IMG/VR virus record: IMGVR_UViG_3300027833_001866
Location: 1-31,297 of that record
Strand: one strand, 5' to 3'
Source: a virus
Length of the DNA: 31,297 nucleotides
Part shown: in pieces, positions 6,121 to 25,339 of the stretch
Position numbering within the stretch: the stretch's first letter is position 1
Layout of the letters: each line of letters starts with the position of its first letter
Notes under the pieces: model-generated
What the model saw: the letters and a program-made list of their open reading frames with translations, nothing else
Database searches by the model: none
Told to the model about the DNA's origin: nothing
Position numbers and translations under genes: made by a program

Positions 6121-9100
6121 ATGGCAAGAGAAATTGTAGATATTGGTGTACAAGGTAATGATGGTACAGGTGATGCTATTCGTGAAGCGTTCCGTAAAAC
6201 CAACGAGAACTTTCAAGAACTATATGCAGTATTTGGTATTGGTGGACAGATAAACTTTACTAACTTAGGCGACACTCCAAGTAGTTATGTGGGTTTAGCA
6301 AGTAGACTAATGGGCGTTAAGACTACAGAAGATGGAATAGAAGCATTAGAGCTTGCATCTGATGGCGCACTAACAGGTGATGCACAAGATGATACAATTT
6401 CTTACAACTATACAGTTGCAGGGAAGTTAATTGTTACAGCAGGCAACAGTAAAGTATCGCAGGACATTAGTCCAAAACTAAGCGGTCCGTTAAACTCGCA
6501 AAACTTTGCTATTGGTAATGTTGCAGTAACAGATAATGCGGCGACAGCATTTGTAAACAAATATGGCGGTTCATTTACTATTGATGATTTAGTTATCGAT
6601 AAACAATATGCTGATCAAAGATATACCAAAGGTGGTGTACCTAATAAACAGGGCGGCGTAAGGCCAGAGCCATCTGACGCTACAGAATATACATTAACTA
6701 TTGGAAACTACAATAGTAGTGGTAATTTAGTAATTGCTGATCACGGATATGATAGAGCGGCAAACGGTGTTGCTGTAACTTATAACTCTACAGCTAGTGC
6801 GGCAACTAACCTTACTAACGCAACTACATTTTATATGGCAGTTATTGATAAGGATACACTTTCTTTACACCCAACATCAGCTAATGCAATCGACGGAACA
6901 AACAGAATATCAGCAAGTGGCGGCAGTGGTACACAAACTATTGTTGATCAAACATACTTATCAACGCTAACAGGCTTTTATACTAGCGAAGAAGTATTAC
7001 CTAGAAATGCAGTAACACGCAGACAGGGTGATACAATGACAGGGCCGTTGTACTTAAATGATCACCCTGGCGACTTAGCTGGACAGAATCAAACTGAAAC
7101 TGGGTTACAGGCAGCTACTAAATATTATGTTGATCAATCAAGTCATCAGTCATCTACTAACTTCTTTGTTAGTACAAAAGGTGATGATAGACAAACTAAT
7201 ACACCTGCAGGCAAAGAAGGTCGTAGTTTAAGTTTTGCGTTTAAAACAATTGGTGCGGCATGTCGTAAAGTAGAAGAACTGATGATTGCTTCGAAAGAAG
7301 AATTAGGTCCGTACAAACAAACTATTGTATACGGCTCGACACTGACTGCAACAACAACGCAGAGTGTAGGTATTCAAAGTATTGTATCAGGTAGACTTCC
7401 TGTACGTACACTAGTTGATGCTAACATTGATTTCATTAAGGCTGAAGTTATTGCATATCTTAATGCAACATACCCTGATTTAAAATATGATGCTGACTTA
7501 TGTGCCAGAGATATTGGATTAATAGTTAACAGTGCAGTACTTGATACATTATCAGGTAACAATGCAAACTACTTGAGTAGGACAGCAGGTCTTAGATACT
7601 TTGCAAACTCGAGTGCTAAAATTGCAATTACTACACAAAAAACAGAAACATTAGCCGGTATTGCTAAAGCAAAAGCATTAGTTAATGATATTATGCAAAA
7701 CAACACAGTAACAGCATTACAAACAATTTACTCACAAACAATTGATAGTGGTCAAGTTGTTGACTCTACTGGTCTTTCAAGTGTAAATGCAAAATTTGAT
7801 ATTGTTACTAGTATTATCGGTAGTGGAGTATTTGATGCACCGGCAATAGTTGATGGTAGTGTGTTTGAACTTAACATTGCTAACGGTGGCAACGGATTTG
7901 TTAAACAAGGTGATCCAACTAACACAGATATTCTTCCTGGTAAGAGTGTTAAAGGTAAGACTAGTGGTGCAATAGGTAAAATTGTATCATATTATTATGA
8001 AGACGATTCTAACAGTGTTACGCCTTCAAACCAAGACAGAATTGAAGTACAGCTACTTGAACCACTCGAATTTATTGCTGGCGAACAATTAGAATACGCT
8101 AACACAGTTAAGTTCCAAGAAGCAACAGTATTTGTTGAATCAGGTAGATATTTTGAAGACTTTCCAATTAAAGTTCCTGCAAACACATCTATTAAAGGTG
8201 ACGAATTTAGACGTTGTATTGTTTCTCCAAATGACAGATCTTCACAAAGTCCTTGGGCAAATACATATTACTACAGAGATTATTCATTCGATAACTTAAC
8301 CGGTAGTGCAGATAGTAACATTACTGGATTTGGGGACACAAATATTCCAGTTAGTGGTGGCGGCTATGTTGATCCGCTAACAGGCAATGTGGTAGGTTAT
8401 TTTGGACAACACTATTTGGTAGATAACACTACTGATGTTAACTATGGCAACAGTGCTATTACAAACCCAGGCGGGTTTTTGCAGTCAGCCAAATTAATTA
8501 CAAAAAACAAAGCGTTTATTATTGAAGAAGTTATACAGTATATTGATGCAACTTATCCAAGTTTATCTTATACTGAAGCAAAGTGCAGACGTGACACTGG
8601 ATATATCATTGACGGGTTTATAAAAGATCTTGTTACTGGTGGTAGATCAGAATCTTTAAAGAACCAAGGTGCATACTATACAGGAGCAGTTGCTGGACAA
8701 GAAACAGAAACTGTTGCGGCTATTAACTATCTTAAAACAATTACTGCCGCTGTACTAGCAAATAGTGCTTGGGGTTCAAAATTAGGATCAGTAACACAAA
8801 TAATTGACTCTAGTTTAACTGCTGAAGCAAATACACAAACTAATTTAAACGCATTAGTTGACGTAATAACATTCTTTAACAACGCTAGTTACAATCCTGC
8901 AAAGAACAACAAACTACTTGACGTGTTTATGATGAACGATGCAACTATTATTAGAAACATCAGTGTTCAAGGACATGGCGGATTTATGATGGTACTTGAC
9001 CCTGATGGACAAGTACTAACCAAGTCTCCATATTGCCAAACAGGTTCAAGTTTTTCACAAAGTTTAAATAGACAAGCATTTAGAGGCGGTATGTTTGTTG

Positions 9101-12100
9101 ATGCTTATACTGGTAACGTACCAATGGAAGTTGTTGCTAAAAATAGCATATACAATGTTGATGTTAGATCAAGTGCAGGCACAGGTTTATTTATTAAGAA
9201 GCCGCAAACGCCGTCACCGTTTTATATTGATGGACAACGTTTTCAAGTTAACGCAGTTAGAGATTGGGATCCTGCACTAGGAACTGCTACACTTATCCTT
9301 GATAGATCAAGTAATAACTTTGCTGGTTGGACAGGAACATTAGCAGACTCGTTTAACTTAGATACAGTTAGTGGGGCAAGTCCAATTGAGATCACTGTAC
9401 AAACTGCTGGTAACAGAAGTATGTTAGGTAATGACTTTACACAAGTTAACGATTTAGGCTATGGACTTATTGTTACTAACGGTGCGCTATCTGAAATGGT
9501 GTCGCAGTTTACTTACTATTGTCATACTGCATACTATGCAAACAAAGGTGGTGAGATTAGATCACTTAACGGATCTAACGCATATGGTAACTATGGCTTA
9601 GTTGCTAACGGTAGTGATCCAAACGAAATTCCAGACTCAGTTACAATACGTGATACTATGGTAATGCCTGGTAAGACAGCAGAGGCAAACATTACACTTA
9701 CATTTGCTGACGTGCTTACACTAAGCTCTAGAGGCAACACAGTAACACAGGCTGTTACGGGTGCTACCGGTACAATTGTGTTTACAACTAAAGGTAAAAA
9801 ACTTTACTTAAAAGATACATCAGGTACATTTAACACAACTAATGATATTACATTATCAGCAGGTAGTGTAAACTTAGGAGCACCGACACTAGTAGTTACA
9901 GGCGGCTATACATTATCAGCTGAACAGTTAAGCCTGTATGTATACGACTTTGACCACTTACCGCAAAACAGAGGTGAGATTGATATTTTACATGCTAGCG
10001 GAACACTAGTTAGGCACGAAGTTAGTAGTGTTAGTAAAGTATTAGATTTTGTAGTAGATGGACATCAAGATGTTGCATACACACTTAACAATGCAGGTGG
10101 CTCAGGTGCAAAGTTTAATATTAATAAAAGTACTGTTAACAACTATGAAGTTGTAATTAATGCGGCCGGTACTGGATATAGTGTTAGTGATACATTTACT
10201 GTATTAGGTACAAAGTTAGACGGTGCAACTACTACTAACGATGCTACAATTACAGTAACATCAATAAGTGCTGGTGGATCAATTACTGGTGCAACTATTG
10301 CAGGCACAATGGCAACAACTGCACATACACCAAAACATAATGGTCAAGTTTACAAACTGTCATTCACAACTTCAAATAGCGGATTTGATAACGACGGTCT
10401 TATTGAGAACACAGATGAAGATACAATAGTAAGTTACAGACAGAATCAATCGTTTGTACTTAATGGAGTAGCAAGTCCTTCAACACTTACATCAAGACCA
10501 AGTACAGCTATACAGTTTGACGAAGCTCCAAAACAAACATATAGAACAGTGGCTTTTACAGTAACAGAATCAACAGGTGAAGAACTAGCTAATAATAGTG
10601 TGTTAACAAACTTTGACTCAACATTTGATTATGTTAGAATTATTGTTGATAAGACAAACGCGGCATTGTCAACATACTCCGGAGGCGGTGGTGCGACAAT
10701 GGGCGCTACAGCAGGTGATGATATCATTGCGATTGAAGAACTAACAGCATTAAGTGATAGAGAACGTATTGCCAACGGCGATATGGTGCTTGCCTGGGCA
10801 GGTAAGCTACACACAGTTAGTAACTATATCGATCGCGGGCCATATTCAACTGTACAACTTGCAGAAGTAGCAAATAGTGACTTGAATAAGGCATCAAATC
10901 AAACTGGTATACACACTTCAATGGTATTGTCTGGTTCACAGACTACTACATTGCGATGTGGTTTACCTGCCGGTGCTCCGGGCGATGTTACAATTAGTAT
11001 TTCAACTTGTAGAGCAACAGGACACGACTTCTTAGACATTGGTACTGGCGGATTTAACACTAGTAACTATCCAAACGTTCTATTAGGTGATCCGCAGCCA
11101 CCAGTACAAGCTAACGAAACTAATGAGCGAGATAAAGGACGTTGTTTCTTTGTAAGTACAGACCAAGATGGATTCTTCCGTGTAGGTAAATTCTTTACAG
11201 TTGACCAAGGTACTGGTACAGTTACGTTTGCAGGTAGTATTGCGTTAAGTAACTTAGACGGTATTGGATTTAAACGTGGTGTTGTTGTTGCTGAATTTAG
11301 TACAGACAACGGTATGACAGCAAACGGATCAGATATTGTTCCGACTCAAAGTGCAGTACGTGGATATGTTAACAGACGTTTAGGGTGGGATCATAATGGA
11401 CTAGCGGCTAATAACATTATTGGTTCGGGTGCAATGGCATTAGATGGCACTACTGCATTTACTGGTAATGTAAATATGGGATCCAATCAGATCACTAATC
11501 TACAAGCACCTAGTGCAAACTCACATGCGGCTACTAAAGCATATGTAGACGGTGTTGTTGATAACTTTGATAGTTTAGAAGAACTAAGAAACACAGAGTT
11601 TAATAGTCCAGCGGCAAACCAGTTAATTGTATTTACAGGTAAGAAAAGACTTATCATTGATGCTGATACTATAGGCGGAACTGGAACATGGGCCGCGGCA
11701 CAAACTTTTGCACAAGCTAGTAGCAGTGCAACAGGTACAGTAGTTGATGTAGAAACAACAACAGATCCAATACTTGGTAACATACAAATTATTACTTACA
11801 CAGCTACAGCAAACGTAGTAGCAAAAGGTGGTGATAAGATAATTGTTACTAGTGGACCAACAGCAGATATACTTGACGGACCGTTTGATGAGATTGCTAA
11901 CGCAGTTGCAGATGGAGCAAGTGCAATGGCTGTTACTGTTACTAGAGCGGCAGGTTCAACTACAGCATTGTATAGTTTTGCGGCAGGCAGTATTGATAAT
12001 GCGGCAGTTTCAGCAACAGCGGCGATTGTACAAAGCAAATTAAACATGAATGCGGCAAGTACTAGAGCAAACGCTACTGGTATTGCACAAAGTAATTTAG

Positions 12101-13197
12101 GACTTGCTAGTTTTGACGCAGGTGACTTTACTGTAACAGATGGTTGGGTAACATTAAAAGCCGGGGGTGTTGACTTTGCTGACATGCCAAGTATGGCAGA
12201 TTTAAGAGTAATAGGTAATATAAGTGGTGGAGCATCAACTCCGACAGAAGTTCCTATTACAACTATTAGTGCAAATGATAGTTTGGTAATGACTAAGTCA
12301 ACTGGCGAAGTTAGAGTTAGTAAACTTGTTGTTGGTGCCGATGACGGATATGTAATTTTACAACCAAAAACAGCCGCGGCAACAACAATTCAAATGCTTA
12401 CACCAGGTGGCGGAGTAATACTTGAAGGCGTCGGTACTGATGCTACAATGACTACTGAATTTCCAGGAAGTATTGATATCGGCAATAGTGGAGCAAATAC
12501 AGAAGGCTCACTACAAGCTAACAGTAACTTTGCTGGGGAGTCAAGACTATCATCAGATTGGGTTTATACACAATTTATTGAAGCGGCAAATGAAAAAGGC
12601 ACTGGAACAACTGGTATAGCTTTAGGTGCTAATACTGGTAAAACAGTAGCAGGCGAAATTGCATTAATTGTTAAAGACGGTTCTGCATCAAAAGTGCCAT
12701 TTAAGTTTAGTGCAACAGGTGTTATTCCAGATGCAACAAATACTTACAACATTGGTAGTTCGTCATTAGTATATAATACTGTATATGCAACTACGTTTAG
12801 TGGTACTGCTACATCAGCAAAATACGCTGACTTGGCAGAAAACTACTTAGCTGACGTTCAATACGAGCCAGGTACAGTTGTAATGTTTGGCGGGACACAC
12901 GAAGTTACACAAGCAATGTCAAAAGGTACTACTAAAATAGCTGGAGTTGTTTCAACTAACCCAGCTTACTTAATGAACTCAGATTTAGAAAACGGTGTTG
13001 CAATAGCACTAACAGGTAGAGTTCCATGTAAAGTAATTGGTAAAGTAGAAAAAGGCGACATGCTAGTAGCAAGTAATGTAGCCGGCTATGCTATGGTAGA
13101 TAACAATCCAGGCGTAGGAGCAGTACTAGGTAAAGCAGTTGGATCTAAACAGGGCGCCGAGCAAGGTGTTGTTGAAATTGTAGTAGGAAGAGTGTAA
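6121..13197 (+). CDS. Giant tail-fibre/adhesin-like virion protein, 2358 residues
   Basis: Residues 1-38 carry the shared anchor module (I-x-I-G-x4-N-x-G-x-G-D...R-x-AF-x-K-x-N-x-NF). Around 345-375 a STKGDD...AFKTIGAA pattern resembles the start of pectate-lyase-type right-handed beta-helices, and beta-helix-like repeats with many Gly/Asn/Ser turns follow. An alpha-helical module occurs twice (about 430-500 and 790-870), each with ATYP-x-L-x-Y-x4-C-x-RD. The last ~150 residues (YADLAENY...VGRV) resemble conserved C-termini of marine phage fibres and perhaps Peptidase_G2-type chaperone domains. It probably forms a trimeric fibre binding the host surface. The following gene overlaps its stop (TAATG). 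Virion role is inferred from repeats and context. Confidence 0.78.
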   Translation: MAREIVDIGVQGNDGTGDAIREAFRKTNENFQELYAVFGIGGQINFTNLGDTPSSYVGLASRLMGVKTTEDGIEALELASDGALTGDAQDDTISYNYTVAGKLIVTAGNSKVSQDISPKLSGPLNSQNFAIGNVAVTDNAATAFVNKYGGSFTIDDLVIDKQYADQRYTKGGVPNKQGGVRPEPSDATEYTLTIGNYNSSGNLVIADHGYDRAANGVAVTYNSTASAATNLTNATTFYMAVIDKDTLSLHPTSANAIDGTNRISASGGSGTQTIVDQTYLSTLTGFYTSEEVLPRNAVTRRQGDTMTGPLYLNDHPGDLAGQNQTETGLQAATKYYVDQSSHQSSTNFFVSTKGDDRQTNTPAGKEGRSLSFAFKTIGAACRKVEELMIASKEELGPYKQTIVYGSTLTATTTQSVGIQSIVSGRLPVRTLVDANIDFIKAEVIAYLNATYPDLKYDADLCARDIGLIVNSAVLDTLSGNNANYLSRTAGLRYFANSSAKIAITTQKTETLAGIAKAKALVNDIMQNNTVTALQTIYSQTIDSGQVVDSTGLSSVNAKFDIVTSIIGSGVFDAPAIVDGSVFELNIANGGNGFVKQGDPTNTDILPGKSVKGKTSGAIGKIVSYYYEDDSNSVTPSNQDRIEVQLLEPLEFIAGEQLEYANTVKFQEATVFVESGRYFEDFPIKVPANTSIKGDEFRRCIVSPNDRSSQSPWANTYYYRDYSFDNLTGSADSNITGFGDTNIPVSGGGYVDPLTGNVVGYFGQHYLVDNTTDVNYGNSAITNPGGFLQSAKLITKNKAFIIEEVIQYIDATYPSLSYTEAKCRRDTGYIIDGFIKDLVTGGRSESLKNQGAYYTGAVAGQETETVAAINYLKTITAAVLANSAWGSKLGSVTQIIDSSLTAEANTQTNLNALVDVITFFNNASYNPAKNNKLLDVFMMNDATIIRNISVQGHGGFMMVLDPDGQVLTKSPYCQTGSSFSQSLNRQAFRGGMFVDAYTGNVPMEVVAKNSIYNVDVRSSAGTGLFIKKPQTPSPFYIDGQRFQVNAVRDWDPALGTATLILDRSSNNFAGWTGTLADSFNLDTVSGASPIEITVQTAGNRSMLGNDFTQVNDLGYGLIVTNGALSEMVSQFTYYCHTAYYANKGGEIRSLNGSNAYGNYGLVANGSDPNEIPDSVTIRDTMVMPGKTAEANITLTFADVLTLSSRGNTVTQAVTGATGTIVFTTKGKKLYLKDTSGTFNTTNDITLSAGSVNLGAPTLVVTGGYTLSAEQLSLYVYDFDHLPQNRGEIDILHASGTLVRHEVSSVSKVLDFVVDGHQDVAYTLNNAGGSGAKFNINKSTVNNYEVVINAAGTGYSVSDTFTVLGTKLDGATTTNDATITVTSISAGGSITGATIAGTMATTAHTPKHNGQVYKLSFTTSNSGFDNDGLIENTDEDTIVSYRQNQSFVLNGVASPSTLTSRPSTAIQFDEAPKQTYRTVAFTVTESTGEELANNSVLTNFDSTFDYVRIIVDKTNAALSTYSGGGGATMGATAGDDIIAIEELTALSDRERIANGDMVLAWAGKLHTVSNYIDRGPYSTVQLAEVANSDLNKASNQTGIHTSMVLSGSQTTTLRCGLPAGAPGDVTISISTCRATGHDFLDIGTGGFNTSNYPNVLLGDPQPPVQANETNERDKGRCFFVSTDQDGFFRVGKFFTVDQGTGTVTFAGSIALSNLDGIGFKRGVVVAEFSTDNGMTANGSDIVPTQSAVRGYVNRRLGWDHNGLAANNIIGSGAMALDGTTAFTGNVNMGSNQITNLQAPSANSHAATKAYVDGVVDNFDSLEELRNTEFNSPAANQLIVFTGKKRLIIDADTIGGTGTWAAAQTFAQASSSATGTVVDVETTTDPILGNIQIITYTATANVVAKGGDKIIVTSGPTADILDGPFDEIANAVADGASAMAVTVTRAAGSTTALYSFAAGSIDNAAVSATAAIVQSKLNMNAASTRANATGIAQSNLGLASFDAGDFTVTDGWVTLKAGGVDFADMPSMADLRVIGNISGGASTPTEVPITTISANDSLVMTKSTGEVRVSKLVVGADDGYVILQPKTAAATTIQMLTPGGGVILEGVGTDATMTTEFPGSIDIGNSGANTEGSLQANSNFAGESRLSSDWVYTQFIEAANEKGTGTTGIALGANTGKTVAGEIALIVKDGSASKVPFKFSATGVIPDATNTYNIGSSSLVYNTVYATTFSGTATSAKYADLAENYLADVQYEPGTVVMFGGTHEVTQAMSKGTTKIAGVVSTNPAYLMNSDLENGVAIALTGRVPCKVIGKVEKGDMLVASNVAGYAMVDNNPGVGAVLGKAVGSKQGAEQGVVEIVVGRV

Positions 13198-13835
13198 TGT
13201 CAAAACAAATAGTAAATATTGGGACAAGTGCAAATAAAGGTGACGGTGATCCTTTAAGAAACGCATTTGATAAAATCAATGATAACTTTAACGAAATATA
13301 TCCTAAGGTGGAAGCACTAGAGGGGTTACATAATACACAGGGTAACACTGTGGAGCAAGATATAATTGGTAGTGTGTTTGCCGCTGATAGTACAATGTTA
13401 GTCGATGGGTTAAATGGTCAACTAACCGGTCCTATTACAGGTGAGACTTGGACAAATAGCACAGACGATATTGCTATTACTGTTGATGCAGGTACATTAA
13501 AACTACAGGCAACAGCAGGTAATACTAATTTTATTAAGATTGCTACTGCTACCGGAGTAAACGTTTATTCACAGCAAGCAATTACATTAGAGACAAATGG
13601 ACAGGGCATAAATATTGGTGTAAACGTTGCATCGGGCGATTTACAAGTAGGACATAGTACAAGTAATACTACAGTTAATGGTACGCTTAATGCAACCCTT
13701 AATAAACTAGTAGCAAAAAGTTGGACTACAACTGAACGTAATGGGTTGTCGGCAGCAAATGGCGAGATTATATATAACCAAACATCGGGCAAAATGGAAG
13801 CATATGCAAACGGTGCTTGGGTAGAATTACACTAA
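13197..13835 (+). CDS. Short fibre-like virion protein with shared N-terminal anchor
   Basis: This 212-residue protein overlaps the giant fibre gene by TAATG. Residues 1-36 repeat the anchor module (IVNIGTSANKGDGDPLRNAF, then NDNFNEIY). The middle is beta-rich and Gly/Thr/Asn-rich. The end (GEIIYNQTSGKMEAYANG..) is the common short C-terminal motif of phage fibres that follows collagen-like or beta-prism shafts. It looks like a short fibre or decoration using the same dock as its larger neighbour, without any recognisable receptor domain. Confidence 0.7.
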   Translation: MSKQIVNIGTSANKGDGDPLRNAFDKINDNFNEIYPKVEALEGLHNTQGNTVEQDIIGSVFAADSTMLVDGLNGQLTGPITGETWTNSTDDIAITVDAGTLKLQATAGNTNFIKIATATGVNVYSQQAITLETNGQGINIGVNVASGDLQVGHSTSNTTVNGTLNATLNKLVAKSWTTTERNGLSAANGEIIYNQTSGKMEAYANGAWVELH

Positions 13836-13854: not shown

Positions 13855-16800
13855 ATGTCTGAACAAGAATATATCGTTAGCCTTAACCGTGATGTCGACT
13901 TTACTGCATTTAATCAAGAAATGATAAGTTTGACCGGTGCGGGATTTATTCCAAATAGAACAGTTGAAATAGCAAATGCAAGACCAGGATCACAACGAAA
14001 TACACATTACTTTTTAACAACACAAGAAGTAGACATTCTAAAACAAGACAACCGAGTATATGGAGTTGAGTTACGTCCTGATCTTAGAGACGATATTCAA
14101 ATTGGATTAACAGCAACACAAAATAGTAACTTTAATAAGAATATTGCAACCACCGGAGATTATGTCAACTGGGGGTTACGTAGAATGATTAGTGCGACTA
14201 ATCCATATGTTGGCGTTCTTGTTACAGGAGGCTTTGGGCATACACTATCAGGTGCAGGGGTTGACATTGTAATTCAAGACAGCGGAATACAAGCAGATCA
14301 TCCAGAATTTTTAGACGGATTAAATACAAACAGAGTACAGCAAATTGATTGGTATCAATCACAAAGTGTTGTATCCGGAACAATGCCTAGCAATCATTAT
14401 ACTGACTATGACGGGCACGGTACACACGTTGCAGGCATTGCCGCTGGTAAAACATACGGTTGGGGGAAGAACTCAAGAATCTATGCTGTAAAAGTAGCAG
14501 GATTAGAAGGTACCGCAGACCCAGGAACAGGAATACCTATATCAGATTGCTTTGATGTAATTAAAGAATGGCATAAAGCCAAACCTATTGACCCTACAAC
14601 TGGAGTAAAGCGTCCTACTGTAGTTAATATGAGTTGGGGATATTCTTTAAGATATGCAGGCATAACTGGTGGTAGTTACCAAGGCATTCCGTGGACTGGT
14701 AATCAAAGAGACACTTTAAAAGGTATGACTGGTTCTTATGACGGATTTGGTTATAGACACAATGTACGAGTAGCATCAGTTGATACTGATGTTCAAGAAC
14801 TAATCGATGCAGGTGTACACGTATGTATTGCCGCAGGTAACAGTACTAACAAAATTGATATTGCTACAGGCAACGATTATAATAACTATTATACTAATTC
14901 CAATGGCAATTATTATTATCACAGAGGATCTAGTCCGTATGATACAAGCGCACATATTGTAGGAAGTATTGACTCGGCATATGCACCTGATGGTTCTGAG
15001 AAGGTTTCGGCATTTTCATGTAGAGGCCCGGGCGTTAGTATTAATGCTCCGGGATCGTATATTACAAGTACTACAAGTAATACTAATAAGTTTACTTCTG
15101 GTACGTATCCTCAGAATACAGATTATAAAACTGCAAACATTAGCGGCACAAGTATGGCAAGTCCGCAAATTGCTGGAATACTTTCTACTTACTTAGAACT
15201 TAACCCGGGACTTACTACTGCACAAGGATTAGCTTGGATTAATGATAATGCTAAAACAGGAATAATATATGACCCTGTTTCTGACATTAATAATTACACT
15301 AGCAACTATTCACTATTTGGCGGGGAAAATCGCTTTGCTTTCCAATCATATAGCGATCCAAACGTACTAGCAATAGCCGGATCAGTTAGTAGTGAAGAAG
15401 GAGCAGAGGCTGCAACACCAACATATGTACTTACTTCTTCGGCAAGCGGAGTCGACGAGGGAGGGACATTTACAATAACACTAACAACTGCTAACCTTGT
15501 TAATGGTAGTATTATTCCATATACAATTACAGGCGTAAGTGCAACTGATATCGGAGGGGCTTCGTTAACTGGGAACTTTATTGTCGGCGTAGTAAACTCA
15601 ATTACAATACAGGTCACTGAAGACAATACGTTTGATGATGGTACAGAAACATTTGTATTGACACTTGACAGCATAGCTGACACATTTATTAGTGTAACAA
15701 TTGCTGATACTAGTAGACCTAATCCTACGTACTTCTTAGGAACTAATTTGGCTACTGTAGATGAAGGTGGAACAATAATATTTACATTAACTACAAGTAA
15801 TGTAGCGGCTGGGACTTCGTTAGCATATACCATTACAGGTGTTAGTAGTGCAGACATTGGCGGAGAATCGTTAAACGGTACATTTGTAGTTGGCACAACT
15901 GATTCACTAACAGTTACAGCAACCGCTGACGAAACATCAGAAGGTCAAGAAACTATGACGCTGGCACTAGATAATAGTCTAGCTACAGCAAGTGTTGTAA
16001 TTAATGATACTAGTACTGTGGCGGCATCGTATACATTATCCTGTGATCAAACTAATATTAACGAAGGTGGGCAATTTACTGTATCACTAGCCTACGAAAA
16101 CGGAGTAACCGGAGTACAAATTCCTTGGACAATTACAGGTGTAAGTGCATCTGATGTTGTTGGTAACGTGCTAACGGGTAACTTTATAGTTGGTAGTACA
16201 GAAACTGCAACAATTGAGATTGCAAATGATCTTACAACTGATGGAGAAGAAACTCTTCAATTTACTTTAAACAATTATCCAACTACATTTATCCAAGTTG
16301 TAATAGCTGATACTAGTCTTGATATTGTATCAGGAACAACTCAATTTACTACAGCTGGTTCTGGTACATTTGTTGTACCAGCAGGCGTTACTAACATAGG
16401 TTTTATGGGGATCGGTGGAGGTGGTGCAGGTCCTGGATCAGCACCTGGATCTTTTTCATCAGGAGGCGGCGGCGGTGCTATTGGATTTAAAAACAATATA
16501 ACAGTAACACCAGGTGATGTTATATCATTCTCCGTTGGTGCTGGCGGATCAGGTAGTAGCGGTAATGGTAGTAACACCTCAATAACAGTTAACAGTATAA
16601 CTTACACAGCAGGAGGCGGCATAGCGGGTGCCTCGGGTACACTTAATGGAACTACTGCTGGAACTTTACTTCAAACAGGATCAACAAGTTCCGGCGGAAA
16701 CGTATCAGGTGCTTGGGATGGATCAAGCAGGGGTGGAGACGGCGGCTTATCTTACCGAATGGCATCACCTAATACTGAAAAAGCCGCAGTTGGCGGTGGT

Positions 16801-19800
16801 GGTGGTGCCGGTGGTATGGGCGAAGTTGGCGGCAAAGGCTCGCCACAAACTGTATTATCTGAAGCATTAGGACAAGCCGCTCCTGCAGAAGCAGTAGTTG
16901 ATGGTGGCATTGGTGCTGGATCAGGCGGCGGACACGGATGGACACAGGACTGGACTAGTGGTACAGGTTCGGTATCAGGCGGACGTGGAGGTGGCGTTAC
17001 AGTTACTTTAGGTAGAAGCGGCTTGGGCGGACTAAAACCAACTACAGTGATACCACAAACTATTACTGGTGCGGGCATTGCTAATAACGGCTCAGGCGGT
17101 AATCCAGGCAACGTAGTCGGCACAGCATTGAATTCAGGAGCAGGCGGTGGTGGCACAATGACACACGCACTTGCTAGTATCGATACCGGGGCCAATAGTG
17201 GCATTACTGGAGCTGTAATGTTTACTTGGCCTGGCAATATTGCGGCATACCAATTCCAGGCTCCAAATTATACATTGACTTCTAACAAATCAGAAGTGTT
17301 TGAAGGCACTAGCTTTACTACAACATTAACAAGTAATTTAACAGTTACGAATACATTAGTGCCGTATACTATCACAGGTGTTAGTAGTGCAGATTTAGGA
17401 AACGAATCTTTAACAGGAACATTAACACCAACTACTAATACTAAAACATTTAATGTAACTGCTGACGATACAGTAGATGGCGAAGAAACATTTGTGATGG
17501 CAACTGATAACGGAGCAACAAGTGTTAGTGTAGTAGTTAATGACTCTTCAACTGGCTTAGAAAATCAATATTCTTCATCAGTAGTTTCGGCAGGGACGGC
17601 GGCATATTCCTTTACATCAGGTACAGATCGTAATGGATCGTTTACTGGCAATAATCCTTACATAGTACTAAACACCAACGACACAATGACATTTAATGTT
17701 AATGCTTCAGGACATCCGTTTTACATAAAAACTGCTCCGGGCACTGGTACAGGTAATTTAGTACCAGATGTTCCTGGCAACGGAACACAAGTAGGCGCAG
17801 TAACATATACACCAAGAACAGCAGGTAAGACATATTATCAATGTTCTATACATTCATTAATGAACGGAACAATATATACAAACAGTGGTTTCTGGGCTAG
17901 TTCGACTGATTACACTTTATCAATAGAAACTGTTGTAAAAGTTGCACAAGATAGTTTAGACAATACTATTGCTATATCATATGCGTTATCTAACGGAGGA
18001 GTGTACACATACTCTATCTACAAGTTAAATATGTTTGGTGATCTAGTATGGCGTAAAACTATGCCGGTTGATGGATGGTTAACGTCATTTGTAATTGACC
18101 AGACTGATAGTAATGTTATTTACGCAGTAGGCGGCGTAGGTCCTAACTGGAAAGACGGCGATGCTCCTACATATACATCAGGAATGGTATATAGTAAAGG
18201 TATTGCATTAAAAATAGATGCAACTGGTGCCACGCAATGGATTAATAGTTATGCAGTTACTAACGGTGACGTACATACGTATTTTACAGATATTAACTTA
18301 ACAACAATTCCAGCAGGCGCTTGGGCTGACACAGTTATATTAGATGTTATTGGTGTAAATCTAGATGCAGTAAACGGCCCAAGTGTAATTGACCAACGTG
18401 GATCGTCTTGGCATAGACTTAATCCTACAAACGGACAAGATGATATATTTGACGGCGCGGCAATATCTGCTAATGATGTAAACTTTCCAGCAGTAATACC
18501 AACTAACCAATTTGGCATACGATTTGAACATATTGAATATAAATCATTTAGTGCGCCAAACGCAGGTAACTTTTATTATATAGCAGGTACACACTTAGGT
18601 AGATCACCTCAACAAGTTAGCGGGCTGTGGGTACAGCAAAAAGATAAAATCTTTGTAAGAATATACGAAATGGGGTCAGATGGTATACCGGTTGAATATA
18701 AAGAAGTTACATTTGAAAATAAAGATGAAACAACTGATATAGTACTTGCAGGAATGGATGTTGCAGACGAATACACTGTTCAAGAAGAAGTTGAAGGTGT
18801 AATGACTGATGTAATAAAGTCACCGGGAATAGTTATAGCACTAAACGATACATCATCTGGCAAGGGTGAAATATTTAGAATACAGCATCAAGCCAACAGT
18901 ATAACTCAACGTATTGGAGTATACGATTCAAGTGTTGATATCCAAAAGAATGTATTAACAGATATTAAAATTGATGGTACAAAGATTTATATTTCAGGAC
19001 AGCAAAAAGAAGATAATACAAGTAACGACTTTACTCCGTATACAGGAGCACTTAACGCATTTTATGCCACAATAGATATAGACGATCTAACTACTGCTGA
19101 CAGTAGATTATTACTATCATCTAGTAATACTTTTATGAATAGTATTTGGGTAGATAAAACAGCTTCAAGTGTAACAAAAGCAGTTGTAGGCGGTCAAGCT
19201 AATCCATCAGCTAAGTTAGGTATAGGTAATGGCGCACAGTATGTTGCTGTTCTGCCAATAGGATCAAAAGATCATTACGGAACTGGACAAGGTAATCAAA
19301 GTACAACAGTATCACAAACATACGAAGATTGGGCAATTGCTAAAACAGGATTTGTTGAAGCAAGAACTGCTGAAGAAAGTAATTTTTCAGCAGTAATTTA
19401 TAATAGCTGGGCTGATGCCGAATCTACTTTAAGGGTTCCAACAGGCATTGTAGCTTCAAGTAATTATAGAACACACACAACTACTTCATTGCCAGCATTA
19501 AGTACTGCATCTTCAGCAACTACTTACAAAATGGCATTAGAACCATATAGCCTTGCAGTTGTAGGTGATCCGACATATGTACTAACTAGTAATGCTACTA
19601 TAGTTAACGAAGGTTCAGCAGTAACGTTTACTTTAACAACAACTAACGTAACAGATACAACAAATATACCGTATACTATAACAGGTATTAGTACTAATGA
19701 CATAGGCGGTACTTCGTTAACTGGAAACTTTACAGTGTCAGGCAATACTGCATCGTTAACATTAACATTAACAGCAGATGCGGCAGCAGAAGGCGAAGAA

Positions 19801-20829
19801 ACATTAACAGTTACACTTGATGGTTTAAGTGTATCTAGGACAATTACAATTAACGATTCTAGTTCATCAGTAAGCGGTTCGCAAACTTATTATAGTCCAG
19901 GAACTAATACGTTTACTGTACCTGATGGTGTTACAACAATTGACATTGTAGCAGTAGGTGGTGGCGGTGGCGGTGCAACAGGGCGCTCGTCAGCAGGTAG
20001 TGCTAGTGGTGCCGGTGGCGGAGGTTTAGCTTATGTTAATAACTTATCAGTATCGCCCGGCGATGCTGTAACTGTTATTGTTGGCTCAGCAGGTGTAAAT
20101 GGTAGTATAACAGTTGACAGTCCGCTTAAATTTGTAGATGTTGATATTAATGCAAACGTCAGTTATACTCCAGCCGCAAGTACAATAACTGACGCAACTA
20201 ACGGTGGTGCTAGTATAATTAGAATTGGTGCAGACGTAGTAATTACAGCTAATGGCGGAACAGCTTCTACACTCTCTGCAGGCGCAGGTGGCACATTTAC
20301 TACTAACAGTAGTTACGGTACTACAAGAGGCGGAGCTGTCGGTAGTGCAGGAGTAACAGCAACAGAATCAGGAGCATCTAAAGCAGGAGGAGGCGGCGGC
20401 GCTGCCGGATATGACACTACTGCAAGTGCTGGTGGCGGCGGACTGGGCGGGTTGGGCCTTAGTGAGTTTTATAGATCAACTGGGGCATATCCAGCAGACT
20501 ATTACAAAGCAGGTGCTGGCGGACGTGGAGGCGGTGTAGAACTACACGGCAAAGGTACTAATGGAACTAACGGCACAGCGGCACCTGGACTAGTAGCGTC
20601 AACAAGCCCATTGAGTTTCAATTATAGTGGCGGTACAAATGGTACTAGAGGAAGTAATAGTGCTGACGCAACTATATCAGTAGGCGGCGGTGCAGGCGGC
20701 GGTGCAGGCGGCAGAATTAGGTATCAACAACTTAGTGGTTCATATTATAAATGGTTTTTAAATGGGACCGGTACATCGGCACAAGCAGGCGGAGTTAGAA
20801 TACAATGGGGATTGGGCGATTATCCGTAA
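13855..20829 (+). CDS. Subtilisin-like protease fused to multidomain adhesin, 2324 residues
   Basis: N-terminal ~80 residues resemble an I9-type propeptide. A peptidase S8 domain follows (about 105-500): Asp142 in IQDSG, His188 in DGHGTHVAG, oxyanion Asn329 in AAGN and Ser433 in GTSMASP, so the catalytic set is complete. Then come three Calx-beta-like repeats (about 523-823), a glycine-rich domain (825-1130), a fourth repeat (1138-1235), a cupredoxin-like domain (about 1240-1342; His1287, Cys1330, His1333, Met1336), a propeller-like region with LDATGxxxW-type strands (1345-1890), a fifth repeat (1906-2003) and a second glycine-rich domain to the end. No signal peptide. Position between fibre genes implies a virion component that may cut host surface protein or mature other fibres. 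AAGGAG at 13840-13845 supports the start. Confidence 0.85.
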   Translation: MSEQEYIVSLNRDVDFTAFNQEMISLTGAGFIPNRTVEIANARPGSQRNTHYFLTTQEVDILKQDNRVYGVELRPDLRDDIQIGLTATQNSNFNKNIATTGDYVNWGLRRMISATNPYVGVLVTGGFGHTLSGAGVDIVIQDSGIQADHPEFLDGLNTNRVQQIDWYQSQSVVSGTMPSNHYTDYDGHGTHVAGIAAGKTYGWGKNSRIYAVKVAGLEGTADPGTGIPISDCFDVIKEWHKAKPIDPTTGVKRPTVVNMSWGYSLRYAGITGGSYQGIPWTGNQRDTLKGMTGSYDGFGYRHNVRVASVDTDVQELIDAGVHVCIAAGNSTNKIDIATGNDYNNYYTNSNGNYYYHRGSSPYDTSAHIVGSIDSAYAPDGSEKVSAFSCRGPGVSINAPGSYITSTTSNTNKFTSGTYPQNTDYKTANISGTSMASPQIAGILSTYLELNPGLTTAQGLAWINDNAKTGIIYDPVSDINNYTSNYSLFGGENRFAFQSYSDPNVLAIAGSVSSEEGAEAATPTYVLTSSASGVDEGGTFTITLTTANLVNGSIIPYTITGVSATDIGGASLTGNFIVGVVNSITIQVTEDNTFDDGTETFVLTLDSIADTFISVTIADTSRPNPTYFLGTNLATVDEGGTIIFTLTTSNVAAGTSLAYTITGVSSADIGGESLNGTFVVGTTDSLTVTATADETSEGQETMTLALDNSLATASVVINDTSTVAASYTLSCDQTNINEGGQFTVSLAYENGVTGVQIPWTITGVSASDVVGNVLTGNFIVGSTETATIEIANDLTTDGEETLQFTLNNYPTTFIQVVIADTSLDIVSGTTQFTTAGSGTFVVPAGVTNIGFMGIGGGGAGPGSAPGSFSSGGGGGAIGFKNNITVTPGDVISFSVGAGGSGSSGNGSNTSITVNSITYTAGGGIAGASGTLNGTTAGTLLQTGSTSSGGNVSGAWDGSSRGGDGGLSYRMASPNTEKAAVGGGGGAGGMGEVGGKGSPQTVLSEALGQAAPAEAVVDGGIGAGSGGGHGWTQDWTSGTGSVSGGRGGGVTVTLGRSGLGGLKPTTVIPQTITGAGIANNGSGGNPGNVVGTALNSGAGGGGTMTHALASIDTGANSGITGAVMFTWPGNIAAYQFQAPNYTLTSNKSEVFEGTSFTTTLTSNLTVTNTLVPYTITGVSSADLGNESLTGTLTPTTNTKTFNVTADDTVDGEETFVMATDNGATSVSVVVNDSSTGLENQYSSSVVSAGTAAYSFTSGTDRNGSFTGNNPYIVLNTNDTMTFNVNASGHPFYIKTAPGTGTGNLVPDVPGNGTQVGAVTYTPRTAGKTYYQCSIHSLMNGTIYTNSGFWASSTDYTLSIETVVKVAQDSLDNTIAISYALSNGGVYTYSIYKLNMFGDLVWRKTMPVDGWLTSFVIDQTDSNVIYAVGGVGPNWKDGDAPTYTSGMVYSKGIALKIDATGATQWINSYAVTNGDVHTYFTDINLTTIPAGAWADTVILDVIGVNLDAVNGPSVIDQRGSSWHRLNPTNGQDDIFDGAAISANDVNFPAVIPTNQFGIRFEHIEYKSFSAPNAGNFYYIAGTHLGRSPQQVSGLWVQQKDKIFVRIYEMGSDGIPVEYKEVTFENKDETTDIVLAGMDVADEYTVQEEVEGVMTDVIKSPGIVIALNDTSSGKGEIFRIQHQANSITQRIGVYDSSVDIQKNVLTDIKIDGTKIYISGQQKEDNTSNDFTPYTGALNAFYATIDIDDLTTADSRLLLSSSNTFMNSIWVDKTASSVTKAVVGGQANPSAKLGIGNGAQYVAVLPIGSKDHYGTGQGNQSTTVSQTYEDWAIAKTGFVEARTAEESNFSAVIYNSWADAESTLRVPTGIVASSNYRTHTTTSLPALSTASSATTYKMALEPYSLAVVGDPTYVLTSNATIVNEGSAVTFTLTTTNVTDTTNIPYTITGISTNDIGGTSLTGNFTVSGNTASLTLTLTADAAAEGEETLTVTLDGLSVSRTITINDSSSSVSGSQTYYSPGTNTFTVPDGVTTIDIVAVGGGGGGATGRSSAGSASGAGGGGLAYVNNLSVSPGDAVTVIVGSAGVNGSITVDSPLKFVDVDINANVSYTPAASTITDATNGGASIIRIGADVVITANGGTASTLSAGAGGTFTTNSSYGTTRGGAVGSAGVTATESGASKAGGGGGAAGYDTTASAGGGGLGGLGLSEFYRSTGAYPADYYKAGAGGRGGGVELHGKGTNGTNGTAAPGLVASTSPLSFNYSGGTNGTRGSNSADATISVGGGAGGGAGGRIRYQQLSGSYYKWFLNGTGTSAQAGGVRIQWGLGDYP
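15421..16320 (+). repeat. Three tandem ~300-base Calx-beta-like repeats in the protease-adhesin
   Basis: Units start near 15421, 15721 and 16024 and code for about 100 residues each, with the pattern YxLT...V(D/N)EGG...F-x-x-x-L...(P/A)(Y/W)TITGVS-x-x-D...G-x-(L)-x-G-x-F-x-VG...(T)-x-x-D...E(E/Q)-T and a final (A/N)DTS. Two further copies lie at about 17266-17560 and 19570-19863 in the same gene. Calx-beta folds in adhesins often bind calcium. The copies are protein-level similar rather than DNA-identical, so the array is not recent. Confidence 0.8.
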
Positions 20830-20859: not shown

Positions 20860-21405
20860 ATGACAATACAAACAATTAATATTGGCACTTTAGCAAATGA
20901 CGGTACTGGAGATGATCTAAGGGCCGCATTTCTTAAAGTTAATTCTAACTTCGATGAACTTGACTTGCGCAATGACGAAGCGACTACAGGTACAAATGTA
21001 GGAGTAGGCGGTCACGCTGTATTCAAACAAAAGACAGGATACGACTTAGAGTTTAGGAAAATTATTCAAGGTGATAGGATCTCCGTTACAACTAATGGCG
21101 ATTTAATTACTATTGCCGCAGACTTAAATGGACACACTTTTGTTAGTGACAGTGGTAGTCATGCTCTGTCAGACGGTGGCGTGTTTAACATTACTGGCGG
21201 CGTAGGTATTTCTACAAGTATACTTGGCAACGAAGTTACAATTAACAGTGACTCATTTAACCTCGGCTTTGATGAAAATTTTGACTTTGGAGAAATTACA
21301 CAGTCTATAACAAGTCATAGAGATTTTTTACAATTTGTTACAGATGTAGACTATGGAACTGTTACAGCACCTGTTAGTTTTAATACTAATCTTGGAACTA
21401 TATAA
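20860..21405 (+). CDS. Virion protein with shared N-terminal anchor module
   Basis: This 181-residue protein has the anchor in residues 1-35 (INIGTLANDGTGDDLRAAF, then NSNFDEL). The remainder is beta-rich with GHTFVSDSGSHALSDGG and a VGISTSILGN-type turn region, and no motif I recognise. It lies 3 bases before the next gene, so the pair is probably cotranslated. It is likely a short fibre, plug or adaptor on the same docking site as the neighbouring fibres. Confidence 0.68.
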   Translation: MTIQTINIGTLANDGTGDDLRAAFLKVNSNFDELDLRNDEATTGTNVGVGGHAVFKQKTGYDLEFRKIIQGDRISVTTNGDLITIAADLNGHTFVSDSGSHALSDGGVFNITGGVGISTSILGNEVTINSDSFNLGFDENFDFGEITQSITSHRDFLQFVTDVDYGTVTAPVSFNTNLGTI

Positions 21406-21408
21406 AAA

Positions 21409-24400
21409 ATGAGCAATTATTGGACTAAACTTACAGGGACTAAGTTAACGACCTTACAGGAAAGTATTACGACTATCGTAAACTTACCGATTAGTTCAGA
21501 TTACACTGTAACAACTGCATTAATATCAGGCAAATTGCCTGAAGGGATGCGTCTAAAAAATAATCAAATTGTCGGAACACCGACAGATGTGCCCAGAGCT
21601 ATAACTAGTACCTTTGTCATTAGAGCTACTGGTGATCATATAGAAGACAGAACATTTAAAATAGAAGTCCAGGGCGCCGATGATCCTGAGTGGATAACTC
21701 CCACAGGTAACTTATCAGTTGGTGCAGAAAACAAACGTTATTTTGTACTTGATAACGAAATTATACATTTTCAATTACAAGCAACTGATTTAGATTTACC
21801 GGCAGGCCAGACATTAGAATACTATATTGACAAGGGAGACGGAGAACTTCCATCAGGCATCACTATGGATAGTAATGGGTTAATATCAGGCGTAGTAGAT
21901 CCGTTGCTGGCTCTTGATGTTGCGGCAAACAAGGGTGCATACGATACAAACAAATATGACGGATACGCATTTGACTTTACTAGTGTTAGTTCTTATTACT
22001 ACAATGGAGAATACTTTCCAGATGCAGTATTTAAAGCACCTAAAAAACTTAATAGATTTTATCAATTCACAGTAAGTGCAAATGATGGCGACACTGTTGT
22101 TAAAAGAGCTTTTACAATTTATGTAGTAGGTGACGACTTCTTAAGAGCAGATAACGTATTAATGCAAGTAGGCACAGGTGTGTTTACGTCTGATAACACA
22201 TATCTTAGAACTCCGGTATGGTTAACAAATAGTGATATAGGTTATAGACGAGCTGACAATTATATTACTATATTCCTTGATGTGTTAAAAAACAACTTAC
22301 AACAAGGTGTTACACAATTTGTACTAAAAGCAACTAACCCAGATGACAGTGCAAGTACATTGCCGCCTGGTATGACATTAGATGTATCAACAGGCGAAGT
22401 GGCAGGACGCATACCATACCAACCGTCGATAACTAAAGAATACAAATTTACAGTTACAGCTAATTTAGTTGATGCGGCAGAAATTAAATCATTTAAAGAC
22501 AGAACGTTTACAGTAAAGATACTAGGGGCAGTTGATTCAACTATTAAGTTTACTAGTAAAAATTTACTAGGAACAATTGACGCAAACTTTACAAGTGTAT
22601 TTAGAGTAGAAGCTATTAGTAGTGTTACTGATGCTCCGTTAATTTATACTAAAACAGCAGGTAGATTGCCCCCTGGGCTATCATTACAGTTTGATGGAGA
22701 AATTACAGGCAAAGTACAACAATTTGGTAACACAAATGTAAGTGGTCTAACTATATTTGATAACGGATTGCTTTTATTAGACGGGGCTGATACTACTGTT
22801 GACAGAGCATACACCTTTACTGTAGAAGCTAAAGATAGATTTGGATATAGTGCAGTAACTAAGAAATTTACAATTAACATTCTAGACGAAAACGATTTAT
22901 TATATAGTAATATATTTATGAAGCCGTTTATGGATAATACTATACGGTCGTCTTATAGAGGATTAATAAGCAATCCAAATATATTTCCAGCAAATGTATT
23001 ATATCGTCCAAACGATTCAGACTTTGGATTACAAAAAGAAGTTAAGATACTAGCATATGCTGGATTAGAAACAAAGTCACTAGCTACATACTTTGCAAGT
23101 AGTCAAAAATACCATAAGAAAAGACGGTACAAAGTAGGTAATGTTAAAACAGCTCTTGCAAAGACACCTGGTTCATCTAATATAGTGTACGAAGTTGTAT
23201 ATGCAGAAGTAATTGATCCAGCTGAACCAACTGTTGGAAAGACTAAAAAGAATTTTACAATTAAAGGTAGTGATACTGTAACTGTAGATCGAGTCGGAGT
23301 GTACGATATAAACAATCGTAATCATACTAACGATGGCATTCCTGTATTAAAAGGAGGCGACGAGGTCTTTAATAAAGATCCGTTACTAACAACTAGTAGA
23401 TATGCACCGTATGACAGATTTTTAGATGTGTTTGGGATTAAGTTAGTTGGTACTCCCCTAATAGGCGGAGCTAGACCAAACAGCGACGAATTCATTAAAA
23501 AAGTGGCAAAGACTGTAACTTTACTTTTAAATAATACCTATGGCGGTAACACTAATCCTACTACACAAATGGCTGTTGTTAATAATATGAAGCAATTAAA
23601 AACAGCACAAAAGATTGGCGTTCACAGCCCAAGCGCATATACTCCGAGTATTGTTGCAGACAATGCAGGTGACAGTTACCCAGGGTTAACTAAGTTTCAA
23701 TATAACTTCCAAAGTGTAGATCATATTTGGGAACAGCCTAGTGAGAGTCTTAATGGAGACGCTCAGGCACTTGAAGTATTAGAGCACTTAATACATACTA
23801 TTACTGTATACGGGCTATCAGTAGTACCTCAACTTGCACAAGATAATCAAACTAATGAGCTATACCTTGCAATGGTAGAAGCAATAGATAATAATAGATT
23901 TGATACATCTAGCTACAGCGGTACATTCCCTGGAACTGATCCAGACTTTAGAGCATTATTAATGCGTGAATACCTTTGGTTGCTAGTGTTAGGTGAATGG
24001 AACTATGTTACTGAGTTTGTAGCGGGCGGATCACTATCACCAGAATGGCATGATAATATGCGTACTCCAGAAGGTATTGCTGCCGCTGGCAATAATCCAT
24101 TAGGCCATGCATTATACACAACATACATTGAACCAATTCTTACAAAGCCTGCAAGTGCTAATTTAAGAACAATATACAAAGATGATGCGCAAGGAGTATC
24201 AGGATATACACCTAACTACATAACAACTGGTACTGACGAAAGCAATGATCAATATTATTTTCCTACTAGTAAAACTTATTTAGAAGTAGGTGATACGGTA
24301 GTAAGTAAAGACAATAGCAGTATACTATCTGTAATATCCGAAACTGATAGTCAAAACTTTAATCAAGGTGAAATGAAAAACATTCCGCTTGCAGACAGTG

Positions 24401-24741
24401 ATGCTATTAAAGTATCAGGCGGCGATGAAGTAAGACACATTGCTAACATTACTAACATGCGTGAAAGTTTAGAAGCAATTGGTACAACAGCATACGGATT
24501 TTTACCACTATGGATGCGTACTCCACAAAGTGTAGGAACACAAGAATCAGGCTTTACATTAGCAATACCATTATGTTATTGTAAACCTGGCAAAAGTGCA
24601 GAAGTATTAACTAACATTCAAAATAGTAATTTTGATTTTCAATCATTAGACGTAACAATCGATCGTTATGTTGTAGATAGTACTACAGGCGACAGTAATG
24701 AACAATATATACTATTCGCAAATTACGACTACAATGCATAA
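21409..24741 (+). CDS. He_PIG/Ig-repeat virion protein with C-terminal helical domain
   Basis: This 1110-residue protein has at least four putative-Ig (He_PIG) repeats marked by LP-x-G-(I/L/M) followed by a G-x-(I/V)-x-G turn: LPEGMRL (residue 42), LPSGITM (147), LPPGMTL (318) and LPPGLSL (419). Similar repeats occur in T4-like cyanophage structural proteins. Residues about 500-1000 differ: a mixed region, then a helical domain with VLEHLIHTITVYG near 787-800, a Trp-rich segment (REYLWLLVLGEWNYV) and a predicted surface loop. No signal peptide. Ig repeats suggest weak sugar binding at the tail or fibre. The helical domain has no assigned function. Confidence 0.75.
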   Translation: MSNYWTKLTGTKLTTLQESITTIVNLPISSDYTVTTALISGKLPEGMRLKNNQIVGTPTDVPRAITSTFVIRATGDHIEDRTFKIEVQGADDPEWITPTGNLSVGAENKRYFVLDNEIIHFQLQATDLDLPAGQTLEYYIDKGDGELPSGITMDSNGLISGVVDPLLALDVAANKGAYDTNKYDGYAFDFTSVSSYYYNGEYFPDAVFKAPKKLNRFYQFTVSANDGDTVVKRAFTIYVVGDDFLRADNVLMQVGTGVFTSDNTYLRTPVWLTNSDIGYRRADNYITIFLDVLKNNLQQGVTQFVLKATNPDDSASTLPPGMTLDVSTGEVAGRIPYQPSITKEYKFTVTANLVDAAEIKSFKDRTFTVKILGAVDSTIKFTSKNLLGTIDANFTSVFRVEAISSVTDAPLIYTKTAGRLPPGLSLQFDGEITGKVQQFGNTNVSGLTIFDNGLLLLDGADTTVDRAYTFTVEAKDRFGYSAVTKKFTINILDENDLLYSNIFMKPFMDNTIRSSYRGLISNPNIFPANVLYRPNDSDFGLQKEVKILAYAGLETKSLATYFASSQKYHKKRRYKVGNVKTALAKTPGSSNIVYEVVYAEVIDPAEPTVGKTKKNFTIKGSDTVTVDRVGVYDINNRNHTNDGIPVLKGGDEVFNKDPLLTTSRYAPYDRFLDVFGIKLVGTPLIGGARPNSDEFIKKVAKTVTLLLNNTYGGNTNPTTQMAVVNNMKQLKTAQKIGVHSPSAYTPSIVADNAGDSYPGLTKFQYNFQSVDHIWEQPSESLNGDAQALEVLEHLIHTITVYGLSVVPQLAQDNQTNELYLAMVEAIDNNRFDTSSYSGTFPGTDPDFRALLMREYLWLLVLGEWNYVTEFVAGGSLSPEWHDNMRTPEGIAAAGNNPLGHALYTTYIEPILTKPASANLRTIYKDDAQGVSGYTPNYITTGTDESNDQYYFPTSKTYLEVGDTVVSKDNSSILSVISETDSQNFNQGEMKNIPLADSDAIKVSGGDEVRHIANITNMRESLEAIGTTAYGFLPLWMRTPQSVGTQESGFTLAIPLCYCKPGKSAEVLTNIQNSNFDFQSLDVTIDRYVVDSTTGDSNEQYILFANYDYNA

Positions 24742-24772: not shown

Positions 24773-25339
24773 ATGGCAAGCACAATTATATCAGCAACAA
24801 TTGACGGAACATACCCAGTAGCCGGGCAAGACAATGACAGTCAAGGGTTTAGAGATAATTTTACAATTATTAAAACAGGATTAGCAACTGCTAATACTGA
24901 AATAACTGCATTACAAACATCTAGTGCAGTACTTGATGCGGCAAATAACTTTTCCGGCAATAGTCAACAAGCAGGAAACATACTTCAACAAACTGAAGCG
25001 TTTTATAATGGTAGTACACTATCAGGAAATACTAACGTAAGTTTTTCAAATGGACACTATCAAGCATTTACAATTGGGGCTAATGTTACACTAACATTAA
25101 CCGATTGGCCAACTAGTGGCAAACTTGCAAAAATGACTGTACACCTTGTAGGCAGCGGCGGCGGACATGCTGTTACATTTACATCATTAGGTAGTACATT
25201 TAGAGTGCCAGCAGGATTTACAAATCCAACTACAGTTGACAGTGCTACACAACCTTACATATTTGATTTTTGGTCATACGATGCCGGTGCTAGTATATAC
25301 GGCGAGTACAAAGGCCAGTTTATAACAGATATATTATAA
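24773..25339 (+). CDS. Small virion protein with a degenerate anchor module
   Basis: This 188-residue protein begins with a shortened version of the anchor (GQDNDSQGFRDNF near 18-30), followed by a helix (IIKTGLATANTEITALQTS). The rest is beta-rich: a strand region near 90-110 (TLTDWPTSG) and HAVTFTSLGSTFRVP. It looks like a small trimeric decoration or fibre tip. It is preceded by a late-type box and followed after 3 bases by a small coiled-coil gene. Confidence 0.6.
   Translation: MASTIISATIDGTYPVAGQDNDSQGFRDNFTIIKTGLATANTEITALQTSSAVLDAANNFSGNSQQAGNILQQTEAFYNGSTLSGNTNVSFSNGHYQAFTIGANVTLTLTDWPTSGKLAKMTVHLVGSGGGHAVTFTSLGSTFRVPAGFTNPTTVDSATQPYIFDFWSYDAGASIYGEYKGQFITDIL

Follow-up and report, generated by a model that had tools for sequence, protein, structure and literature searches.

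A predicted proteinase-K-like protease of phage tail gene clusters and its conserved prodomain

Results

A subtilase opens the tail-cluster protein

The ORF at 13855-20829 of the window (the whole stretch of viral DNA analyzed here, 31,297 bases) begins with what is almost certainly a genuine, active-type subtilase, judging by its sequence and modeled structure. The same protease family recurs widely among the tail genes of large T4-related phages, most of them aquatic. The module itself is already annotated in GenBank; what is new here is the conservation pattern of its prodomain. The features of the locus are collected in Table 1.

Table 1. Coordinates of the S8 protease-adhesin ORF, its domains, and the neighboring genes in the window.
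Feature	Position	Strand	Basis
S8 protease-adhesin fusion ORF, 2324 aa	13855..20829	+	full-length homologs L006 (2319 aa), L007 (2323 aa)
Prodomain, residues 1-75, I9-type beta-alpha-beta-beta-alpha-beta	13855..14079	+	AF2 secondary structure, hhalign
Linker, residues 76-103, expected autoprocessing zone	14080..14163	+	low pLDDT, lower conservation, mature N-termini
Proteinase-K-like catalytic domain, residues 105-475	14167..15279	+	PF00082 at 133-467, profile and structure matches
Catalytic Asp142	14278..14280	+	invariant in 67/67 distinct homologs
Catalytic His188	14416..14418	+	invariant in 67/67 distinct homologs
Oxyanion-hole Asn329	14839..14841	+	invariant in 67/67 distinct homologs
Catalytic Ser433	15151..15153	+	invariant in 67/67 distinct homologs
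Three ~97-aa beta-type repeats, residues 524-822	15424..16320	+	repeat comparison
Glycine-rich region 1, residues ~840-1135	16372..17259	+	Gly composition
Fourth ~97-aa repeat, residues 1139-1233	17269..17553	+	repeat comparison
Cupredoxin-like domain, residues 1235-1349	17557..17901	+	H1287, C1330, H1333, M1336
Beta-propeller-like region, residues ~1345-1810	17887..19284	+	fold match, low-pLDDT model
Fifth ~97-aa repeat, residues 1908-2004	19576..19866	+	repeat comparison
C-terminal glycine-rich domain	19867..20826	+	PF21722 at 2015-2173; phrog_4474, E 9e-31
2358-aa tail fibre protein, T4 gp9/10-like N-terminus	6121..13197	+	profile matches
212-aa gp9/10-like connector	13197..13835	+	phrog_677 baseplate wedge tail fiber connector, E 8e-8
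181-aa protein, gp9/10-like N-terminal motif	20860..21405	+	motif comparison
1110-aa He_PIG / baseplate wedge-type protein	21409..24741	+	PF05345; Syn33 homolog
188-aa tail-cluster protein	24773..25339	+	conserved in many S8 loci

An earlier, sequence-only reading of this DNA had described a 2324-residue ORF without a signal peptide that carries all four S8 elements; the length was confirmed, and Asp142 (in DSG), His188 (in HGTH), Asn329 (in AGN), and Ser433 (in GTSMA) were found at exactly the positions it gave, invariant across the distinct homologs. The catalytic set was also complete in six named phages, S-SCSM1_228 and Atu_ph07 gp329 among the proteins concerned. The HMM search proposed in that reading matched PF00082 to residues 133-467 above the Pfam cut-off (E 4.8e-27, 95.5 bits against 21.8), and the structure prediction it had likewise called for returned the fold of active subtilases. 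For residues 1-514, the AF2 model (pLDDT 88.6) superimposed on aqualysin I (4dzt) with Z 37.3 and rmsd 1.8 over 271 residues and on proteinase K with Z 35.5, the rmsd values for both enzymes lying between 1.8 and 2.1. The top 17 structure matches were all proteinase-K-like chains (Z 34.5-37.3, the next group following at Z 31.6), and proteinase-K-like enzymes were likewise the best among subtilases in the sequence profile search. Because the modeled fold matches and the residues are invariant, loss of the triad geometry is unlikely. No signal peptide was detected, the highest 15-residue Kyte-Doolittle mean within the first 60 residues being 0.74.

Prodomain and catalytic domain are similarly conserved in the phage family

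The first ~80 residues, earlier called propeptide-like, do resemble the I9 domains of cellular subtilases. In the AF2 model, residues 1-73 are arranged as beta-alpha-beta-beta-alpha-beta, the I9 arrangement, and hhalign comparison of the prodomain with the I9 regions of 21 cellular I9-S8 sequences gave a probability of 93.5 (E 2e-7). Pfam I9 itself gave no match above threshold (best E 0.27, in one of 44 sequences), and a PDB search with the prodomain alone as query returned no credible match. No free-standing inhibitor or docking copy of the prodomain was found nearby: 8121 ORFs were searched and all 89 matches lay within S8 ORFs. The following linker is less conserved (45%) than both of its flanks, drops below pLDDT 50 at residues 81-84, and contains the model positions (83-100) at which the mature N-termini of solved proteinase-K-like enzymes fall. 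Given this flexible linker and these mature starts, the cleavage after residue ~80-100 guessed in the sequence-only reading is a reasonable prediction.

Identity within the phage family was 55% in both the prodomain and the catalytic domain, compared with 24% and 52%, respectively, in a small set of 21 cellular I9-S8 controls given the same treatment, which come mostly from one bacterial phylum. When pairs were compared, prodomain identities of 0.41, 0.55, and 0.61 corresponded to catalytic identities of 0.37, 0.55, and 0.65 in the phages, against 0.21, 0.24, and 0.37 at 0.39, 0.52, and 0.65 in the cellular proteins; the pairs are non-independent, and distant prodomains could be aligned only with uncertainty. 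Since disposable prodomains diverge and the phage prodomain does not, the pattern suggests, as a lead rather than as proof, that the phage prodomain is retained with a lasting role as a latch or in docking.

Repeats and further modules in the remaining chain

Five repeats of ~97 residues, each ~50% identical to the first, are distributed along the chain. The repeats reported earlier are thus real, while their Calx-beta name is unproven: none of the five matched Pfam Calx-beta (PF03160) at E <= 5, in a search whose sensitivity is limited by single short repeats and HMMER filters. The glycine-rich domains of the same description were recovered, with 26% Gly over residues 836-1180 in the first region (Pfam Gly_rich_2 weak, E 0.4) and 24% Gly in the second, where PF21722 scored above its cut-off. 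For the cupredoxin-like domain, the His-Cys-His-Met ligand set was borne out and is conserved in 29 of 32 distinct matches; the domain had no Pfam match, and the model is of middling confidence there. The propeller-like region also found support in its predicted fold, which matched YncE with Z 27.7 and rmsd 3.3 over 305 residues and CylK with Z ~27, from a poor model (pLDDT 52).

The C-x2-H-x2-M cupredoxin-like domain recurs in marine phages and in cyanophage tail proteins, in some cases as a fusion to the S8 protease and in others as part of the gene just upstream (loci L005, L006-L011, L013, L017, L020, L023, L026-L035, L043, L045, L068, L069, L075, and L082-L086). It is possible that it forms a copper site on phage tails.

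The gene lies in a baseplate and tail-fibre cluster

Most of the sampled S8 loci are baseplate/tail-fibre gene clusters in which some of the window's neighbors are kept. Short genes resembling the 212-aa connector adjoin S8 in many relatives, and in Syn33 the homolog of the He_PIG protein, annotated as a baseplate wedge subunit, is located between gp9 and gp8. By eye, the C-terminus of the Atu_ph07 S8 protein resembles the window's separate He_PIG/baseplate protein in its LPLWMR-type segments, so that, on this sequence resemblance, separate neighbors in one phage correspond to a single fused protein in another; tblastn of the window He_PIG protein also matched two Agrobacterium phage records. 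Three cluster genes have a similar gp9/10-like start (6121-6240, 13197-13300, and 20860-20960; for example IVNIGTSANKGDGDPLRNAFDKINDNF), which is likely a shared baseplate docking tag. The protease ORF lacks this motif.

The window also encodes a UvdE-type UV endonuclease (4011-5114; PF03851, E 8.5e-38). Around the tail cluster lies an auxiliary gene set: a PTPS-like pterin synthase (1044-1493), a HesB/IscA-like Fe-S protein (5728-6108), a GroES-like Cpn10 (26527-26973), a MazG-like protein (26973-27326), and a ferredoxin (30511-30864).

Two homologs are probable virion proteins

The sequence-only reading had called the product a virion-type protein; the tail-cluster setting agrees with this, and two homologs from other phages point the same way. 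S-SCSM1_228 (SSCSM1_228), a 1411-aa protein with N-terminal S8, bears the record tag "virion protein", one of 48 such tags counted in that genome. For S-SCSM1, 45 proteins were detected by MS, and three non-structural ones are named (PMC9602691). All three carry the tag, whereas TerL, one short tail fibre protein, and several genes of the baseplate lack it. Because the two counts are close, non-structural proteins are tagged, and several structural genes are untagged, the tag very probably denotes detection by MS. For Atu_ph07, MS defined the virion cluster as CDS 284-329 (PMC6102473). Counting genes from gp293 (DnaJ) places the tail fibre protein on gp327, as in that source, and the S8 protein on gp329, the last member of the cluster. 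From record tags and gene numbering, both homologs thus appear to be virion proteins, and by analogy the window protein is probably virion-borne as well.

The family is common and changes fusion partners

Relatives were found on at least 391 IMG/VR contigs in one viral-contig scan, and also in annotated cyanophages and Agrobacterium phage Atu_ph07; 80 of the IMG/VR relatives were kept for analysis, and 67 distinct sequences were compared. ORF sizes ranged from stand-alone forms of ~500-530 aa (typically ~515) to fusions of up to 2374 aa, and homologs down to ~30% identity retained all four catalytic residues. Taking ORFs of >= 600 aa as fused, a limit near which a few are debatable, 36 distinct sequences were stand-alone and 31 fused. 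The giant protease-adhesin had earlier been presented as something special. It is less special than that, and the idea of a unique or giant-only feature was rejected, for the family is common and stand-alone forms slightly outnumber fusions.

The nearest relatives, L006 and L007, are full-length and share the window protein's architecture. Across the tree, the fused or stand-alone state changed at least five times (10 by parsimony, with none of 500 shuffles as low), and fusion partners differ: the repeats, cupredoxin, and propeller in the window, a ConA-like region in S-SCSM1, a cupredoxin in S-CAM4, and He_PIG plus a baseplate-type C-terminus in Atu_ph07. Occurrence is patchy, the protease matching 65 phage records against 1738 for the clamp loader. 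GenBank already labels members as subtilisin-like protease (cyanophages) or serine proteinase precursor (Atu_ph07). A literature search found no description of an S8 protease on phage tails and no functional study of the module; the S8 peptidase of P-HM1/P-HM2 is listed only (PMC3037559).

Carriers are T4-related phages

T4-type gp23 was present in two of the five module-bearing records searched, the other three being fragments, and the gp23 of a 165-kb record shares 70% identity with its counterpart in a 349-kb Vibrio phage. On these sequences, module-bearing phages are T4-related and at least partly jumbo. A cyanophage origin of the window was unsupported: its clamp loader ATPase (28924-29904) has its closest relatives in PA5oct-like Pseudomonas jumbo phages (54%) and not in cyanophages. 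No photosystem reaction-centre gene was found in the records of 12 relatives, which are mostly fragments.

A recently captured host gene was also considered and rejected, a profile scan of genomes having given only eight loci. The best were on a 335-kb gp23-bearing phage contig (47%) and a 3-kb fragment (48%); the others reached 25-35% identity over parts. The 335-kb sequence L086 (PBPT01000016.1) was submitted as part of a Marinimicrobia MAG and has T4 gp23 and an S8 tail cluster; by its gene content, it is a jumbo phage contig that ended up in a bacterial bin.

Discussion

The sequence-only reading offered three roles, namely surface clearing, receptor cleavage, and maturation of fibres. The reading that we prefer, to which we give about an even chance, is a latent tail-carried protease that becomes active after prodomain release and acts most likely on host surface protein. 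A proteinase-K-type subtilase zymogen would form the N-terminus of a tail or baseplate adhesin and would fold in the host cytosol while the I9-type prodomain is still attached and inhibits it. Self-cleavage in the 76-103 linker would leave the prodomain bound as an inhibitor, and the virion would then carry a latent protease, positioned by the remaining chain. On reaching the host surface, the enzyme would lose the prodomain and cut surface protein, so that the adhesin meets a cleared or loosened barrier. That the protease is latent with a retained prodomain could go either way, and a host-surface target is, taken separately, similarly balanced. Counted in favor of a latent protease on the tail are the invariant catalytic set, the fold, the tail synteny, the varied fusions, the two homologs that appear to be virion proteins, the prodomain conservation, and the missing signal peptide; against tail mounting stand the 36 stand-alone forms, which have no adhesin part. 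The enzyme could equally be a late-made cytosolic protease acting on phage proteins instead.

The main rival, which we regard as possible though rather unlikely, is a morphogenetic protease that, while the particle is being assembled, trims either its own chain or neighboring proteins of the fibre or baseplate. Prohead proteases trim head proteins in this way. The S8 gene usually adjoins genes for long fibre proteins, its product would be made in the cytosol for want of a signal peptide, and maturation of jumbo-phage virions by group-specific structural peptidases has been proposed (PMC7824862). However, its occurrence is patchy although phages without it build similar fibres, and freely changing fusion partners do not suggest one fixed substrate; on these two points, a host-directed, outward-facing role seems likelier.

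Two further explanations concern the protease domain itself. It is improbable that the protease releases itself from the adhesin, once assembly is complete or during adsorption, with S8 then working as a diffusible enzyme or as a trigger; fused and stand-alone forms do share a boundary at ~515 residues and are often interchanged, but that boundary may be a mere domain edge. A non-proteolytic use, in which the subtilase fold is inactive, or inhibited for good, and serves as a structural or binding domain, seems more improbable still, since four catalytic residues invariant in 67 relatives are unexpected for a dead enzyme. The caveat is PCSK9, a subtilase that works with its prodomain permanently bound and keeps its catalytic residues for autoprocessing. 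PCSK9 was among the structural neighbors of the 1-514 model, and the high conservation of the phage prodomain fits permanent retention.

Compared with proteinase K and aqualysin I, the window protease has the same catalytic residues, the same fold (Z 35-37), and an I9-type prodomain ahead of the catalytic domain. It differs in lacking a signal peptide, in being fused to phage tail modules, in its large inserts (~414 alignment columns against ~280-residue targets), and in a prodomain that evolves as slowly as the catalytic domain. The cyanophage "subtilisin-like serine protease" proteins S-CREM1_165, SfFR1_192, PSSM2_297, and S-CAM4_190 share the homologous module, the tail cluster, and the catalytic set, but they are 559-682 aa long, stand-alone or with a short C-terminal part, and only 29-37% identical. 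Atu_ph07 gp329, an "extracellular serine proteinase precursor" of a T4-related jumbo phage, similarly joins N-terminal S8 to tail/baseplate-type sequence; its partner is instead a He_PIG/baseplate-type C-terminus, and the similarity is weak (27%). S-SCSM1_228, labeled "baseplate wedge subunit (virion protein)", has a fused N-terminal S8 with all catalytic residues, whereas its C-terminus reads as ConA-like in sequence, with no such repeats or propeller recognized there.

Enzymes built into tail adhesins are familiar from tail-spike depolymerases and S74 chaperone proteases. Unlike the window protease, these target polysaccharide or self-cleave once, and their folds are unrelated.

Many genes of the family are labeled "hypothetical" or "baseplate wedge subunit" and are therefore easily overlooked, and phrog_9158, currently without a function label, can receive one. 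Members are present in the cultured phages S-SCSM1, S-CREM1, and P-SSM2. As a generalization, it is doubtful that a widespread class of aquatic T4-related phages carries proteinase-K-type tail zymogens with a permanent, environment-sensitive prodomain latch that opens only at the host surface, the protease being activated on contact and stripping surface protein. If the latch reading is true, tails would remove surface protein in the way that tail spikes remove polysaccharide. The phage tail enzymes known for breaching host surfaces mainly target polysaccharide and peptidoglycan. If T4-related aquatic phages do share a common family of tail-borne proteases, surface layers made of protein would join the barriers that phages attack.
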